DNA from: Candidatus Treponema caballi
GTDB taxonomy: Bacteria > Spirochaetota > Spirochaetia > Treponematales > Treponemataceae
Length of the DNA stretch: 64,000 bases
Assembly (NCBI GenBank): GCA_018066285.1
Contig: JAGHRS010000020.1
Span: 1 to 64,000, forward strand
Reading direction: 5' to 3'
The notes under the pieces were generated by a model that worked only from the letters and a program-made list of their open reading frames with translations, searched no databases and was not told the origin of the DNA. Each line of letters opens with the position of its first letter. Within the stretch, counting starts at the first letter, position 1. Shown here one piece after another: positions 28,928-62,696 of the stretch. Position numbers and translations under genes: made by a program.

Positions 28928-30676
28928 TCAGCGCGCGGCGTACTGGGCGGTGTATAATTCTTTATACAGTCCGCCCTTTTCCATAAGTTCGTCGTGCGTT
29001 CCCGCTTCTTCAATGCCGTTTTCTGTAACGACGGCAATCTTATCCGCATTCTTTATGGTCGAGAGCCGGTGCGCTATCACGAGCGTCGTGCGGCCTTTTG
29101 ACAGCTCGTCAAACGAGTGCTGTATCTTTAGCTCAGTCGCCGTGTCCAGAGCGCTTGTCGCTTCATCCAGGATAAGGATAGGCGGGTTTTTCAGGAAGGT
29201 GCGTGCAATTGAGACGCGCTGCTTCTGGCCGCCCGAAAGCTTTACGCCGCGCTCACCCACAACAGTGTCGTAGCCGTCTTTCATCTTCATTATGTCTTCG
29301 TGAATCTCAGCGCGTTTTGCGGCCTCAACGACCTGCTCAAGGGTCGCGTCTGGGCAGCCGTACGCTATGTTCTCGCGGATGGTGCCTGCGAACAGGAACA
29401 CATCCTGCTGTACGATGCCTATCTGGCGGCGGAGTGACGCTAGGCTGACTTTTGAAATGTCGGTGCCGTCAATGGTGATTGCGCCTTCCGTAAGCTGGTA
29501 GAAGCGCGGCAGCAGGTGGCAGATTGTCGTCTTTCCGGCACCTGAAGGGCCTGCGAGCGCGACGGTCTGGCCGGCTTTTATTTCAAGATTGACGTGAGAA
29601 AGGACAGGCGCGTTTTCGTTGTAGGCGAACGTTACGTCGCGGTAGCTGATGTCGCCTTTAACAGTGGCAAGGTCCGGGGCATCCGGCAGCTCAGGGATTT
29701 CGCTATGTGTGCGCATAAGTTCAAGGAAGCGGTTGAAGCCAGCCATGCCGGTGGTAAACTGCTCGACAAAGTTCGACAGGCGGCGGATCGGCCCCTGGAA
29801 AGCGGCAACGAACAGCTGTGCTGCGACAAGGTCTGCCACGGTCATGGTGCCCTGCATGATGAACCAGCCGCCGAGAGCGAGCACGATGACGTCCAGCAGG
29901 TGAAGGCCAAGTTCCAGCTTGGAATGGAACAGCGCCATTGCCTTGTAGAAAAGGCCGCGTGCGCCTTTGTACGCTTCGTTGTTCGCGTTGAAGCGGTTTA
30001 TCTCGTACTCCTCGTTTGTAAAAGCCTGGGTGACGCGCACGCCTGAAATGCTTGATTCGAGCGTCGCATTTATATCCGCCGTGCGTTCTTTGACCTTGCG
30101 GGATGTGGAGTTCATTGCCCGCCTGGATTGCATGACAATCAGGATGCAGATGGGGATGTAGATGATGACGACGAGCGCCAGTTCCCAGCGGATGGAAAAG
30201 AGCATGGTAAAAGAGCCTGCCAGAATCAGGATGGAAAGCAGCAGGTCTTCGGGGCCGTGATGGGCCAGCTCAGTCACTTCAAAGAGATCGGTCGTGACGC
30301 GCGACATCAGGTGGCCGGTACGGTGCTGGTCGAAAAAGCTGAACGACTCTTCCTCTATGTGCGTGAACAGGTCGCGCCGCATATCCGCTTCAACGCGGGT
30401 ACCAAAAATGTGGCCCCAGTACCCGATGAACCAGTTCGAGACTGCGTGGAGGACATACATGAGTACCATGCACGCAATCATGATGAACAGCGGGCGGGGC
30501 TGCATGTCAGGGATGAGCGTGTTGAGCGTGTAACGGCTCATCATCGGGAAGGCGGTGTCGATTGCCGCAACGATGAACGCGCAGAACATGTCGCCTGCGA
30601 ACAGCTTCCAGTGCGGTTTATAGTACGAAAGGAAAACGGATAAGGTCTTTCGGTTGAATCTGTCTGAGTTGGTCAT
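28928..30676 (-). CDS. ABC exporter, fused permease and ATPase (MsbA/MdlB type)
   Basis: 582 residues. An N-terminal six-helix permease domain (about residues 15-320) is followed by a nucleotide-binding domain with Walker A GPSGAGKTT near residue 372, signature LSGGQKQR near 478 and Walker B ILILDEATSALD. As a half-transporter it must dimerise. Homologues export lipids, drugs or peptides; nothing here fixes the substrate. Start: ATG 30676, six bases after a TACAAT element on the minus strand with an upstream TGc; an in-frame TTG or GTG start 18 bases earlier lacks support. The repeat array at 30760-31082 lies 84-406 bases upstream of the start. Confidence 0.93.
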   Translation of the reverse strand: MTNSDRFNRKTLSVFLSYYKPHWKLFAGDMFCAFIVAAIDTAFPMMSRYTLNTLIPDMQPRPLFIMIACMVLMYVLHAVSNWFIGYWGHIFGTRVEADMRRDLFTHIEEESFSFFDQHRTGHLMSRVTTDLFEVTELAHHGPEDLLLSILILAGSFTMLFSIRWELALVVIIYIPICILIVMQSRRAMNSTSRKVKERTADINATLESSISGVRVTQAFTNEEYEINRFNANNEAYKGARGLFYKAMALFHSKLELGLHLLDVIVLALGGWFIMQGTMTVADLVAAQLFVAAFQGPIRRLSNFVEQFTTGMAGFNRFLELMRTHSEIPELPDAPDLATVKGDISYRDVTFAYNENAPVLSHVNLEIKAGQTVALAGPSGAGKTTICHLLPRFYQLTEGAITIDGTDISKVSLASLRRQIGIVQQDVFLFAGTIRENIAYGCPDATLEQVVEAAKRAEIHEDIMKMKDGYDTVVGERGVKLSGGQKQRVSIARTFLKNPPILILDEATSALDTATELKIQHSFDELSKGRTTLVIAHRLSTIKNADKIAVVTENGIEEAGTHDELMEKGGLYKELYTAQYAAR

Positions 30677-30727: not shown

Positions 30728-31108
30728 GCATTGTTGACGGGTGGGAAGTGCGCGAGTAAGACCGTCCGGATGGCCTTATTTGTACGGGTTGGACGGTCAT
30801 CTGACAGGCTGAAATGGAGAGAACCGTCCAACTTATTCGTAGAGGGCAGGATGGACGGTCGAAAAAGGGGATAGAGAGGTGGGCTGACCGTCCAAGGGGG
30901 CGGAAAAAGCTATTTTGGACGGTCGTTGCAAAGCGATTTGATCATTTTTAGTAGAAATGTAAGGGAGTTTATCTAAAAACGACCGTCCGTTTCAGCTGTT
31001 TACAATGTGTTGGACGGTTGTCTGGGAAAAAAAACAAAAAAGCGACCGTCCAAGGTGTGTTATAGGACCGGGATGGACGGTTGCTGTCAATCAGGCATTG
31101 TTGACGGG
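30728..31108. repeat. Direct repeat flanking the motif array
   Basis: GCATTGTTGACGGG occurs at 30728-30741 and again at 31095-31108, the same way round. The two copies bracket the array at 30760-31082, with 18 bp on the left and 12 bp on the right. TTGACGGG also resembles a degenerate copy of the array motif TTGGACGGTC. Confidence 0.7.
30760..31082. repeat. Array of ten GACCGTCC motifs as five inverted 39-bp units
   Basis: The motif GACCGTCC(AA) appears at 30760, 30822, 30886, 30981 and 31044 on the plus strand (the 30822 copy starts AACC). Its reverse complement GGACGGTC or GGACGGTT appears at 30791, 30853, 30917, 31012 and 31075. Orientation alternates strictly. In every unit the two arms are exactly 23 bp apart, giving a 39-bp unit. 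Successive units are separated by 23, 25, 56 and 24 bp. Starting positions of neighbouring motifs are 31-33 bp apart except for one double step of 64. The 23-bp inner sequences are unrelated. The region has no gene. It lies upstream of the ABC exporter and past the end of the GH2 gene. Function unknown. Confidence 0.95.
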
Positions 31109-31309
31109 CGTATTGCACTGTGCCGCGCAAAAAACACTTATTTTTTCGCAATATGGTCCCCTTTTTGGCGAAATTGGCCGGAAAGGGGACCGGCTTTCAA
31201 AAAGCATTTTTCGGGCGATGGCGGGGCGTTGCGGGGGCGCTGAGCTCCCGCTAGAGGGGGCAGTGGAGAAGACCGGAGCGAGCGGATGCGAGTGAGGACT
31301 TCGGAACGA
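31109..31309. repeat. Inverted repeats right of the array
   Basis: GGTCCCCTTT (31155-31164) and AAAGGGGACC (31182-31191) are perfect 10-bp arms around 17 bases. A nested GCCGG / CCGGC pair overlaps the right arm. The remainder is G-rich and has no credible coding frame: the short frames here lack ribosome-binding sites and cross the repeats. Confidence 0.8.
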
Positions 31310-31310
31310 G

Positions 31311-31414
31311 GGGCAGGCGCCCCTTCAAGAAGCATTGCGAGTTTGTGCAAACAAACTCGTTAAGTAACAGAGAAGAGATTATCTCTTCTCTGTTACGACG
31401 GGCAGGCGCCCCTT
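31311..31414. repeat. Direct repeats enclosing two hairpins after the GH2 gene
   Basis: GGGCAGGCGCCCCTT occurs at 31311-31325 and 31400-31414. Between them lie a 9-bp hairpin (CGAGTTTGT / ACAAACTCG, 31338-31359, GCAA loop) and a near-perfect palindrome of 33 bases (31364-31396: two 16-base arms around one base). The right-hand copy ends 12 bases from the last codon of the minus-strand GH2 gene, so the hairpins may end its transcript, though there is no T-run. Confidence 0.85.
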
Positions 31415-31426
31415 TGGATTATCCGC

Positions 31427-34400
31427 TTATTTCTCGAACTGGAATCCTTCAAAATCGAAGCAGCTGCCGGGCAGGAACACGAAGACGACTCTGCATTTCC
31501 CGTGCACTGGTACATCCAAGCCGAACGAGTGTTCGGTAACTTCCTCTGTAGCCGGAATCTCGACTGCCGTGCGCATTTCTACCGGTTGCGCGGCGTTTGC
31601 GGGGAGCGCGTCTGCTTCCTGAGTATCGTCTTTCACGAACAGGATGTGCACGGTGTTGGTGCCGTTGACTGCGCGCCCTTTTATACGGATGCCGTGGATG
31701 CTGTCTGTGCCGAAATCCATGTCACGGAACTCGAGCGAGACGTTGTTGCCTATGCCTGAGATACGGTCGCTTTCCCGCGTGAAAGTGTCGCCGGTGATGC
31801 TGTCAGCGTCGGGCGCTGAAAGAGCGCTGAACGCTTTCCGACTGTGCTCGAACTGGAAGCCCTGGATTGAGAAGCGGTTGGTGTCGGTCAGGATGTACAG
31901 GTCGTGAATGCCTGTCAGGCGGCGCGGAAGCGTCCATGTGTTGCTCTGGTAGTGGTTGTACCACGACGGCGAGTTGTATTCTGCCTGCATGAGGAGCCGG
32001 CCGCCGCTGTCGGGGTTGCCATCCCAGATGCCGAGCGTCATGGTTGTATCGAACGAGAAGATGGGGATGGTGAACGTGTCGCTTCCTTCAGTGCCGAAAT
32101 CGACGTTTTCAAAGCTGATCCAGTTGCGTCCTTCAGGTACGTAAACGCCGCCCTGAAAACTCAGCTTGCATTCGTTCAGTGAGGCGCTTTTCTCGCACGC
32201 GGATATGAACTCGTATGGATTAAGGCAGGCGTTTCCCATGTCGCTGACGGAGAACTCCAGCTCGGAGATGATTTCCGGAATGCCCGTGCCGTTGTCGCAT
32301 GAGCAGCGCAGGCGGAATTCGCCGTCCTGGCGCGCGGTCACGCGGACAGCGTCGCCAGCAGTGGGGGCCAGCGGGGTGAGCGCGGCTGCACGTGATGCGA
32401 TGCCTTCCAGGCGTACAGCCTCGAACTTGAGGGCGTGGTACGTCGCGTTTTCAGGAAGGATGTGCGCTGTTACGACGACTTCGCGGTTTTCGGGACTGAG
32501 CGCGTGGGCACCACTGCAGGTGAGCTCAATCTTCCGCACGGGAACTTCTTCGCTCGCGCCCGATGCCTTGAAAGTGTCTGGTGCCTGATTTGCGGATGCA
32601 GCTTCGGAAAGCGTATTCAGCAGACACGTCGCGCCTTCCAGCCCGGGTGACGTGACGGTCAGCGTAACGGGCACGTCTTGGGCGTTGGGGTCTGGCGAGA
32701 GTATGGCGATGAGCGCGTTGCTGAAAAGCCGGCGCGTGTTTGTCTTGTACTGCTCGTAGTCTGTGCTGTCGCCGTTATCAAGGCCTTCGAGGCGCGCGCC
32801 TGAAACGGAGACGGTGACGCGGTTCCGGGCGTTATCCACAGGGTTACCCGCTTTATCCACAGCGTGAATCTCAGCGAAAATGAGGTTGCGCGGGCCTTCA
32901 AAATGCGGCTTGTCCAGTTTTACGACAAGACGCGCCGGATCTCCGGGAGTGGTACGGCTTTCGCGCGCCAGTTCAGCGTCGCTTTCGTCACGCGCAATTG
33001 CTGTAATGGTGCCCGGCGCAAAAGGCAGCTGCCATTCGCCTGCAAGCTTTGTTCCGTGTGCGTGATCAATTCTCTGGACGCCGCATGAAGTTCCGTTGAA
33101 AAGCAACTCGACCTGCGGCGCGTTTGTGTAGGCGCGGATATCAATCAGCTGACCGATGTTGAAATCCCAGTACGGCAGCAGATGTACCATCGGATGCGCA
33201 CGGTAATCCGTCCACTCAGCCTGATACTGAAAATACGTGTCTTTCTTAAATCCAGCAGTGTCTATCTGGCCGAAGAACGAGTTTTTCGTGAAATAGGGCG
33301 TCGGCTCGCCGATGTAATCCCATCCCGTCCAGATGAACTGACCTGCACTGAACGGCGTGTTCCTGTCGCGGATAACCGTGTCCGCTGCGTTTGCGCTTCC
33401 CCAGTTTACCGAGCAGTTTCCGAGCGATGAGCACTGTGAGTCATCATGTGTGAGCGTCCGGAAGTCTGCCGGGAAGTGATAGATGCCGCGGGATTGCACG
33501 GTTGCGCTTGTTTCGCTGCCGTAGAGCCGCCAGTTTTGGTGGGACATGTGATGTCCCTGATAGAGCCGCTCGCCGTAGTTATAGCCAGCAATATCAACGA
33601 GTTCTGCGCATGATTGCGCTCCCTGCCATTCCATGTAGTTTGAGGCGATGGTGACCGGTGCGTTTTTCGCAGGGTCGTGCCTGTGCACCAGAGCGGTCAG
33701 CTCTTTTGTGATTGCGTATCCGTTACCCTGATGCGTATCATAAATCTCGTTTCCAATGCTCCACATGATGAGCGACGGATGATTTCTGTCGCGCCGAATC
33801 CAGCTGGCAACATCGCGCGCATGCCAGTCGGGGAAAAAGCGCGCGTAATCGTACGTTGTCTTGGATTTTTCCCACATGTCAAAGCACTCACTGTCGATGA
33901 GCATGCCCATCTCATCTGCAAGTTCCATGAGGGCAGGAGAAGGCGGATTGTGTGAAAGTCGGATTGCATTTACGCCCATGTCACGCAGCTTGATGAACTG
34001 CCTTCTGAGCGCCGTCAGGTTGAACGCGGCTCCCAAAGCGCCCAGGTCGTGGTGCATGCACGCGCCGTTTATTTTCACGTGTCGGCCGTTAAGGAAAAAG
34101 CCTTCGTCGCTGTCAAAGCGGATGGTGCGGAAGCCGACTTTCTGGACGCAGCTGTCGAGCAGGCGGCCGCATGCCTTACAAGTGGATGATGCCTTGTCTG
34201 CCGATACATTGTCGTAAGCGGATGTGTTGCCGTTGCATTCAAAAAGCTCAGTCGTCAGCGTGTATAGATGCGGCGCGATCACGTCCCATTCGCGTACATC
34301 GCTCAAGTGAAATACGGCCTCTGCGACGGAAGCTCCGGCGGGGTCCAGGTACCAGTACGGGTCGGCTGTTGCAAGCGCGGTGAGCGTTACCGGACGCGAT

Positions 34401-35083
34401 GTTTCGGCGACGACTGTCCCCGCCTCATCCGCGAGCGAAAAGCGGACGAGCGCCTGTTTGTCTGGTAAAAGCGGATTTGCCTGGTGAGCCGTACCGCTCA
34501 CTGTTGGTTTCCAGCACGCTTCTGCGCTTATTCTGGCGGACCAGCTGCCGTCAGCGTTCTTCTCTGAGCTGAAGTAAACGCCGTCTGACACAAGATGCGT
34601 GTCAGGCACATCAATCCGCCAGACATCACGGTAGATGCCGGCGCCCGAGTACCAGCGCGTGTTTGGCGAGCGGTACACGGAAATGACGGTGATGCTGTTT
34701 CTGCCATCTTTCAGGAACGGCGTTGCATCCACTTCGAACGTCGTGTATCCGTATTTCCATTCGAACGCCTTTTCGCCGTTTATATACATGGATGTGTCCA
34801 TGTACACGCCCTCAAAGCGGAACAGCGTCCTGTCTGTGGATGCGCTTGTTGAGCTTGCAGAAGCTGAACTGGCCGGGTTTTTCAGGAAGTTTTTTCTGTA
34901 TATGCCGATTGAGTTTTCGTATAAGTCGTGTGTGTTCCAGATGAGCCAGTCGTGCGGAATGGTGACGGGCGTGAACTGTTCATCAGGGATGGAGAGCAGG
35001 GCGCTTTCTTCAGGGAGGGGCGCGTCTGCGCTTTCAAGATGAATCTTTGTGAACTGCCAGCCGTCGTTGAACAGTGTCTTCAT
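31427..35083 (-). CDS. Glycoside hydrolase family 2 enzyme (beta-galactosidase-like) with two CBM-like modules
   Basis: 1218 residues. The GH2 order is clear: N-terminal jelly-roll (FNDGWQFTKIH, VTIPHDW), an Ig-like domain, then the (beta/alpha)8 barrel with acid/base Glu near residue 445 in SIGNEIYDT and nucleophile Glu near 524 in YGSETSATVQSRG. Further Ig-like domains follow. Two C-terminal modules of about 110 residues (from about 979 and 1109) end in SIQGFQFEHS and FEGFQFEK and resemble CBM6-type carbohydrate-binding domains. There is no signal peptide, which is odd for an enzyme with binding modules. The ATG at 35083 follows TGGAGG; the open frame continues upstream over the methyltransferase gene but has arginine/proline-rich shadow sequence. 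Substrate: beta-galactosides, or possibly glucuronides or mannosides. Confidence 0.9.
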   Translation of the reverse strand: MKTLFNDGWQFTKIHLESADAPLPEESALLSIPDEQFTPVTIPHDWLIWNTHDLYENSIGIYRKNFLKNPASSASASSTSASTDRTLFRFEGVYMDTSMYINGEKAFEWKYGYTTFEVDATPFLKDGRNSITVISVYRSPNTRWYSGAGIYRDVWRIDVPDTHLVSDGVYFSSEKNADGSWSARISAEACWKPTVSGTAHQANPLLPDKQALVRFSLADEAGTVVAETSRPVTLTALATADPYWYLDPAGASVAEAVFHLSDVREWDVIAPHLYTLTTELFECNGNTSAYDNVSADKASSTCKACGRLLDSCVQKVGFRTIRFDSDEGFFLNGRHVKINGACMHHDLGALGAAFNLTALRRQFIKLRDMGVNAIRLSHNPPSPALMELADEMGMLIDSECFDMWEKSKTTYDYARFFPDWHARDVASWIRRDRNHPSLIMWSIGNEIYDTHQGNGYAITKELTALVHRHDPAKNAPVTIASNYMEWQGAQSCAELVDIAGYNYGERLYQGHHMSHQNWRLYGSETSATVQSRGIYHFPADFRTLTHDDSQCSSLGNCSVNWGSANAADTVIRDRNTPFSAGQFIWTGWDYIGEPTPYFTKNSFFGQIDTAGFKKDTYFQYQAEWTDYRAHPMVHLLPYWDFNIGQLIDIRAYTNAPQVELLFNGTSCGVQRIDHAHGTKLAGEWQLPFAPGTITAIARDESDAELARESRTTPGDPARLVVKLDKPHFEGPRNLIFAEIHAVDKAGNPVDNARNRVTVSVSGARLEGLDNGDSTDYEQYKTNTRRLFSNALIAILSPDPNAQDVPVTLTVTSPGLEGATCLLNTLSEAASANQAPDTFKASGASEEVPVRKIELTCSGAHALSPENREVVVTAHILPENATYHALKFEAVRLEGIASRAAALTPLAPTAGDAVRVTARQDGEFRLRCSCDNGTGIPEIISELEFSVSDMGNACLNPYEFISACEKSASLNECKLSFQGGVYVPEGRNWISFENVDFGTEGSDTFTIPIFSFDTTMTLGIWDGNPDSGGRLLMQAEYNSPSWYNHYQSNTWTLPRRLTGIHDLYILTDTNRFSIQGFQFEHSRKAFSALSAPDADSITGDTFTRESDRISGIGNNVSLEFRDMDFGTDSIHGIRIKGRAVNGTNTVHILFVKDDTQEADALPANAAQPVEMRTAVEIPATEEVTEHSFGLDVPVHGKCRVVFVFLPGSCFDFEGFQFEK

Positions 35084-62283: not shown

Positions 62284-62696
62284 GTGCTGACAGCAGCGGA
62301 AAAAACATTTTTTACAGGCTGATAGAGGGGTGTGGGGCTTCCAGTGGGTAAAGACGAGCTCTTTTCGTGATGAAGCGCGCGCCCTTTTTCAGAAATTACC
62401 TACCAGGGGTGGGACACCGTCTTCAGGTAGGTAAAATTGCGCGCTTTGTTTTCATTTAAGCACAGAGAAAGTCCATTTTTCAAAAAAATAAACAGACTGT
62501 AGAGATGACACCCCGATCCAGGTAGGTAATTTTTGAAATGACCAATTTCACCGGCTTTGAAAAGCCTTGAAACTTACCTACCACAGAAGGGTAACTCCTG
62601 CCCACTCTGTAAATCACAGAAAAAGCAGTCATTCATGCTACTTCGAGAAGGCGCCGCGCGCTGCCTTGAAAGCGCACTCATGCCTTATCTGCAGAG
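62284..62696. repeat. Gene-free gap with four copies of TTACCTACC
   Basis: TTACCTACC occurs at 62396-62404 and 62574-62582, and its reverse complement GGTAGGTAA at 62426-62434 and 62521-62529. The first pair is inverted with 21 bases between, giving a unit of 39 bp. A G/C-rich GGGGTGGGACACC-type sequence lies inside the loop and a related GACACCCCGATCC stands before the third copy. The gap holds no credible gene; short frames cross the repeats and have no ribosome-binding site. Confidence 0.8.

Follow-up and report, generated by a model that had tools for sequence, protein, structure and literature searches.

What is the regular array of short inverted repeats that lies between an ABC exporter gene and a glycoside hydrolase gene of Candidatus Treponema caballi, and what protein, if any, reads it? 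The window, the whole 64,000-nucleotide stretch of DNA that was analysed, contains at positions 30760–31082 ten copies of the motif [G/A]ACCGTCC in alternating orientation, with an invariant 23-bp inner spacing, exactly as an earlier note on this DNA had described. The copies form five ACCGTCC-N23-GGACGGT dyads spanning 30761–31081 (inner spacer 23 bp in 5/5), with dyad-to-dyad steps of 62, 64, 95 and 63 bp; neighbouring motif starts are 31, 31, 31, 33, 31, 64, 31, 32 and 31 bp apart. The inner sequences are unrelated between units, as had been claimed, apart from an A or T at the dyad centre. The array is also, as the note had concluded, not a CRISPR: its cores are 7–8 bp long and alternate in direction, whereas CRISPRs consist of direct repeats of about 23–47 bp with unique spacers.

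The surroundings of the array are given in Table 1. The upstream regions of syntenic orthologues of the ABC exporter gene in genus-mates contain no array, and neither a promoter nor a terminator was found in a search at the array. An Rfam search returned sub-threshold matches only (TD-2 near 31309; RAGATH-8 at chance level). A G+C-rich interspersed repeat, part of which gives the sub-threshold TD-2 match, adjoins three of the four arrays with the ACCGTCC motif.

Table 1. Coordinates of the arrays and associated features; positions refer to the window unless a contig or locus is named.
Feature	Position	Strand	Remarks
Dyad 1, GACCGTCC-N23-GGACGGTC	30760–30798	.	motif starts 30760(+), 30791(-)
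Dyad 2	30822–30860	.	motif starts 30822(+), 30853(-)
Dyad 3	30886–30924	.	motif starts 30886(+), 30917(-)
Central gap	30925–30980	.	95-bp step, 9 turns; same gap in C4 and C66 arrays
Dyad 4	30981–31019	.	motif starts 30981(+), 31012(-)
Dyad 5	31044–31082	.	motif starts 31044(+), 31075(-)
14-bp direct repeat GCATTGTTGACGGG, left copy	30728–30741	+	flanks window array
14-bp direct repeat GCATTGTTGACGGG, right copy	31095–31108	+	flanks window array
ABC exporter gene	28928–30676	-	downstream of window array
Glycoside hydrolase family 2 gene	31427–35080	-	3' end towards window array
G+C-rich repeat GTTGCGGGGGCGC..AGCTCCCGCTAGAGGGGGCAG..GGGGCAGGCGCCCC	31219–31400; L011 7077–7155; L013 150–215		
Second array, half-site TTACCCAC	62344–62351	-	
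Second array, intact dyad TTACCTAC-N23-GTAGGTAA	62396–62434	.	
Second array, half-site	62522–62529	-	
Second array, half-site	62574–62581	+	
C4 array	C4 180628–181009		6 dyads
C5 array	C5 243438–243726		5 dyads
C66 array	C66 242–499		4 dyads
rpsO-pnp units	L193, L194, L201, L203, L207, L208		

The genome of the organism itself (2.9 Mb, 75 contigs) was searched for the dyad with inner gaps of 19–27 bp. The pattern matched 21 times, 20 of them with N23, and a reversed control gave no match, which places the window array far from chance. The scan for further RACCGTCC-N23-GGACGGTY units that the earlier note had proposed thus yielded 20 dyads in four arrays, on contigs C24 (the window), C4, C5 and C66. 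Their cores are identical in 40/40 half-sites, the inner spacer is 23 bp in 20/20 dyads and the central base is A or T in 20/20, while the spacer sequences differ between arrays. What had been noted as a 'double step' is a single 95-bp step near the middle of the window array, and it recurs in two of the other three arrays (C4 and C66). When two mismatches were allowed, just three extra places appeared, at the level of the control, so there are no decayed single copies of the dyad. A coding repeat was considered and rejected: an open frame runs through the C5 array, but the 62- and 64-bp steps elsewhere break the frame. The C4 array lies upstream of a gene at C4:179743-180546 that encodes a 266-aa protein, and the window, C5 and C66 arrays carry the same motif with no gene of that family found alongside.

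The exact ACCGTCC dyad is confined to the source species. Matches in other genomes of the bacterial family are chance-like, a search of one genome per species in 84,980 species gave five single chance matches and no array, and viral contigs gave none. A detector keyed to architecture alone, in which one 7-mer must recur as inverted pairs of constant separation, was applied to 1.7 Mb of sequence from genus-mates. In one genome (G001) it picked up an array that has 63-bp steps and the motif TTCCCGACT..AGTCGGGAA; patterns derived from this array revealed further ones in G001 and in genus g4. In the related treponemes, which the note had named for scanning, the same dyad design occurs with other motifs in many genomes. 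The absence of any further unit in this genome and its relatives, which the note had set as grounds for dismissing a function, was thus not observed. The genome sample consists of drafts, one genome per species, in which start codons are not fixed.

The open reading frames beside the TTCCCGACT..AGTCGGGAA-type arrays belong to one family of proteins of ~270–315 aa, which also includes the 266-aa gene at the C4 array. Searches of Pfam, NCBIfam, PHROGs and PDB sequences with the 266-aa protein gave nothing significant. An alignment of 34 members reveals an invariant core, RSKSE...PDF...EHxG, in which E162, P193-D194 and E209-H210 are invariant; this is the conserved acidic/PD/ExK-type catalytic motif of PD-(D/E)XK nucleases, with EH in place of ExK. 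The last 100–120 residues match the PADLOC models PDC-S68 (34/34) and HEAT_CxxC_PDDEXK (15/34), and these matches support the prediction of a PD-(D/E)XK-like nuclease domain at the C-terminus.

The family is patchily distributed, in 91 of 274 Treponemataceae genomes, with some weak matches to the C-terminal domain alone, and it is expanded to up to about 10 paralogs per genome. The genome studied here has 11 matches, corresponding to about 10 genes, and one of its paralogs is split by a frameshift (G000:C5:120857-121525; L231, L232). A further spirochaete family has full-length members as well; there, genes in two genomes (G492 and G592) are preceded by inverted repeats with motifs of their own at a pitch of 41–43 bp, about four turns. 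Five G492 paralogs (L262, L263, L264, L265 and L243) have the leader TCTCAGCGAAA.GCC in common; after it comes a hairpin that covers the ribosome-binding site with its 3' arm and whose stem changes are apparently compensatory. Among viral and plasmid relatives, no full-length one was found except in MT839528.1 (L233), a 4.2-kb faecal 'Bacteriophage sp.' record that encodes a family homolog without an upstream array; its phage label is unverified, and it looks like a piece of Firmicutes-like bacterial chromosome. A link between the arrays and T_den_put_tspse (Rpn-like) genes was discarded, as it was a single case (L168) that did not recur.

The association of genes and arrays was assessed in the 700 bp upstream of family genes, with a detector that misses degenerate arrays. 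At least two dyads are present upstream of 32 of the 39 family genes and at least three upstream of 26/39; downstream arrays accompany 2/41 family genes, and among 300 random control windows two contain two dyads and none contains three or more. Enrichment near one gene class, which had been named in advance as support for a function, is thus found upstream of the nuclease-like family. The motif differs from gene to gene (ACCGTCC, CCGACTTAAC, CCCGACTAAA, ACCTACAAAA, CCCACTTAAC, TTCCCATAG, ACGGATAAA, TACGGACGAAA, TCATATAA, TTACGTATAA and others), and 14–28 bp separate the 8-bp arms of the dyads across the family. Conversely, the gene family is present in each of the 11 genomes with at least two CCGACYWA dyads (p=3.5e-6). 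For four or five paralogs in the genome studied here, the detector showed no clear array upstream. The window array is an orphan, one of four arrays of the same motif, and helix-phased arrays of this design directly precede almost every gene of an undescribed nuclease-like family with two domains, whose protein is the likely array binder.

The window holds a second orphan array, at 62344–62581, which is partly decayed and lies between a DTW-domain-like gene and recR. Its half-sites are 52, 31, 95 and 52 bp apart, that is 5, 3, 9 and 5 turns. Its exact dyad occurs at a single other place, upstream of the paralog C24:94955-95752, and this paralog shows the same pairing of a gene array and an orphan array as the C4 gene. 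The genes that adjoin orphan arrays are unrelated and have nothing in common, and some orphan arrays lie between convergent genes, so promoter control is not their sole role.

Across the family, dyad-to-dyad steps fall into discrete classes of 62–65, 73–76, 84–86, 94–95, 104–106, 116, 126–127, 148, 169 and 189 bp. A periodogram of 129 steps in arrays from many genomes peaks at 10.55 bp (R=0.937), which is the helical repeat of B-DNA; 71 unique steps give R=0.921 (Rayleigh about 1e-27). Changes in the arms are mostly one-sided: 44 break the pair, 25 leave a G-U pair and 3 are complementary. Steps locked to the helical repeat, together with one-sided arm changes, argue for arrays that act as duplex DNA, occupied on one side of the helix, rather than as RNA stems.

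What reads the motif was approached by comparing motifs and proteins. Motif similarity follows protein similarity (Mantel r=0.58, 0/2000 permutations); N-terminal identity retains a partial correlation of 0.52 given the C-terminal domain (0/2000), whereas the C-terminal domain given the N-terminal one has -0.03 (p=0.63). As the sequences are related by descent, these permutation values are indicative. The motif thus tracks the N-terminal domain and not the nuclease domain, and in windows along the protein the signal peaks at residues 32–75, inside an N-terminal domain that in the C4 protein comprises about residues 1–105. This segment (GRLKIS..QFYL..KYL..helix) could, at a guess, form a three-strand-plus-helix DNA-binding fold. 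The suggestion of the earlier note that the sites form a binding array for an oligomeric protein on one face of the helix is therefore strongly supported, by the 10.55-bp phasing and by the co-variation of motif and N-terminal domain, with the family protein as the candidate binder.

In genus g4, nuclease-array units are found repeatedly in the intergenic region of rpsO-pnp, and such a unit occupies the same place in several species. When L201 is compared with L194, the 3' part of the gene and the downstream flank align (83–90%), and the array and the 5' part of the gene are unrelated. Between L208 and L194 both flanks are retained (88% and 91%), together with part of the nuclease domain. Read from these alignments, the array and the N-terminal domain were replaced together at this locus, and the nuclease domain and flanks stayed.

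Among known systems, the nearest analogue is RAYT (TnpA-REP) with its REP, BIME and REPIN repeats (PMC2817692, PMC8266576, PMC3116915). In both cases the gene of a DNA-processing protein is tied to its own short repeats, with which the protein co-varies, and BIMEs and dyad arrays alike are clusters of alternating repeats with dispersed extragenic copies. However, RAYT is an HUH tyrosine enzyme acting on GTAG-tagged single-strand hairpins, with repeats on both sides of the gene and hundreds of copies, while the present family is PD-(D/E)XK-like, is associated with double-strand dyads on whole turns, has its array upstream only and has few copies. No conserved HUH motif with a catalytic Tyr was found in the 34-row alignment and no transposase match in Pfam or NCBIfam; the dyads carry no GTAG-type tag on a short hairpin, and the gene flanks show none of the two-sidedness of RAYT (upstream 32/39, downstream 2/41). 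The candidate defence helicase-nucleases PDC-S68 and HEAT_CxxC_PDDEXK share a homologous C-terminal nuclease domain with the family, which differs from them in lacking a helicase; in its place the family has the N-terminal domain, on which the motif of the array depends. The similarity covers the C-terminal 100–120 residues, which match the end of a ~1,220-residue model; neither a whole-protein PADLOC match nor partner genes were found.

Clustered sites bound by an oligomeric protein, as in ParB-parS and plasmid parC and sopC, are a model for such arrays. Unlike parS, the array motif is linked to a nuclease-like gene, and its sequence is unrelated. A parS centromere was considered and rejected, the canonical TGTTTCACGTGAAACA 16-bp palindromes lying elsewhere (C25:6100 and 6228). 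In the shuffling of type I restriction specificity subunits, the DNA-recognition part is exchanged and the rest of the gene is kept; the likeness is one of analogy only, and here the target array is swapped along with the recognition domain. In the open-licence PMC literature we found no description of a nuclease-array system.

Several other explanations of the array can be weighed against these results. At C5 the array is a 63-bp tandem, near-perfect and recent, as a local accident of tandem duplication and decay would produce, but four arrays with unrelated spacers and identical cores, and the same design in many genomes, refute such an accident both genome-wide and family-wide. The earlier note had also offered five transcribed RNA hairpins with equal loops. 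The + strand of the window array does fold better than shuffled sequences (z -7.6), as any set of inverted repeats must; the 44 pair-breaking and 25 G-U arm changes against 3 complementary ones, however, are not the compensatory pattern that was looked for, the steps follow the DNA helical repeat, and the promoter and terminator search was negative, so hairpins are very improbable. The arrays could instead be operators for a transcription factor of the usual kind that has nothing to do with the neighbouring gene family, which would fit their intergenic position, often upstream of a gene. Such operators would account poorly for a separate motif for each paralog, for motif change that follows the N-terminal domain of the adjacent gene, or for orphan arrays whose flanking genes share nothing and sometimes converge, and we consider them improbable, if a little less so than hairpins.

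A more serious contender is selfish dispersal of the REP/RAYT type, in which the nuclease-like protein would recognise and copy its own arrays, the gene with its array being autonomous and the orphans non-autonomous. It would explain orphan arrays that share a gene's motif but lie elsewhere, the patchy distribution with up to about 10 paralogs, and the occurrence of an array plus gene in an unrelated context (L203 versus L200), and the combination of dispersed genes and repeats in alternating orientation is reminiscent of RAYT and BIME (PMC2817692). The window array is moreover flanked by a perfect 14-bp direct repeat, longer than all 1056 null pairs (maximum 12). Yet no comparable flanking repeat exists at 32 other arrays, where lengths are like those of the null; orphan copies number 3 here rather than hundreds; arrays keep to a single side of the gene, where RAYT has repeats on both; and a transposase-type catalytic domain is lacking. 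Dispersal of this kind is possible, at somewhat less than even odds in our judgement. The note's suggestion of a mobile-element end is likewise possible: copies are dispersed and patchy, but a flanking direct repeat, which in an insertion-sequence-like element would be a target-site duplication, is not general and is restricted to the window array. Alternatively, the array might be a dock or sensor that restrains a harmful nuclease, as in a defence or toxin-like system, with loss of the complex, for example upon phage attack, releasing it. The nuclease domain is common to the candidate defence helicase-nucleases PDC-S68 in all 34 members, the catalytic-type residues are invariant, and specificity turns over fast in a patchily present family. 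Against this, a partner gene is lacking, the rpsO-pnp locus is not among the known defence islands, viral contigs yielded no confirmed relative and the PADLOC match covers one domain only; we regard defence as unlikely.

Binding of the arrays by the family protein is an inference, as are a nuclease activity and a purpose, be it autoregulation, REP-like dispersal, defence or chromosome organisation. If the PD-(D/E)XK-like domain cuts DNA, it may do so to copy arrays, in defence of the cell or solely after release. In the model that we consider likely, a protein dimer would sit on each dyad and contact one half-site with each of its N-terminal domains; the half-sites lie about three turns apart, the starts of the two cores being separated by 30 bp, and the A/T-centred stretch between them would be bent. 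Further dimers, aligned on the same face of the helix, would assemble cooperatively into a nucleoprotein array. Where an array stands at the gene, it would most likely serve autoregulation, probably through repression of the gene's own promoter, which would keep the nuclease-like protein scarce and docked there. Orphan arrays, such as that of the window, would be copies of this dock in trans that have spread through the genome.

On balance we lean, with modest conviction, towards a genetic element of a new class, built around a modular PD-(D/E)XK protein whose DNA-reading domain evolves fast and whose gene carries its own helix-phased array upstream. Domain and array would be swapped as one specificity cassette and orphan arrays seeded elsewhere in the chromosome; the element would be a counterpart of RAYT/REP outside the HUH enzymes, or else a docked nuclease that serves in defence. 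The unnamed protein family, often present in several copies per genome, is tied to DNA sites that can be read from the sequence alone. Its members supply dozens of naturally matched recognition domains and targets, with at least a dozen distinct motifs, as a data set for a DNA-recognition code, and the steps, which keep to whole turns over a range of 6 to 18 turns, provide unusually clean evidence of helical phasing in vivo. If the orphan arrays move, they would represent a second, non-HUH route to REP-like repeats; if they do not, they would be a new kind of multi-site chromosome dock.
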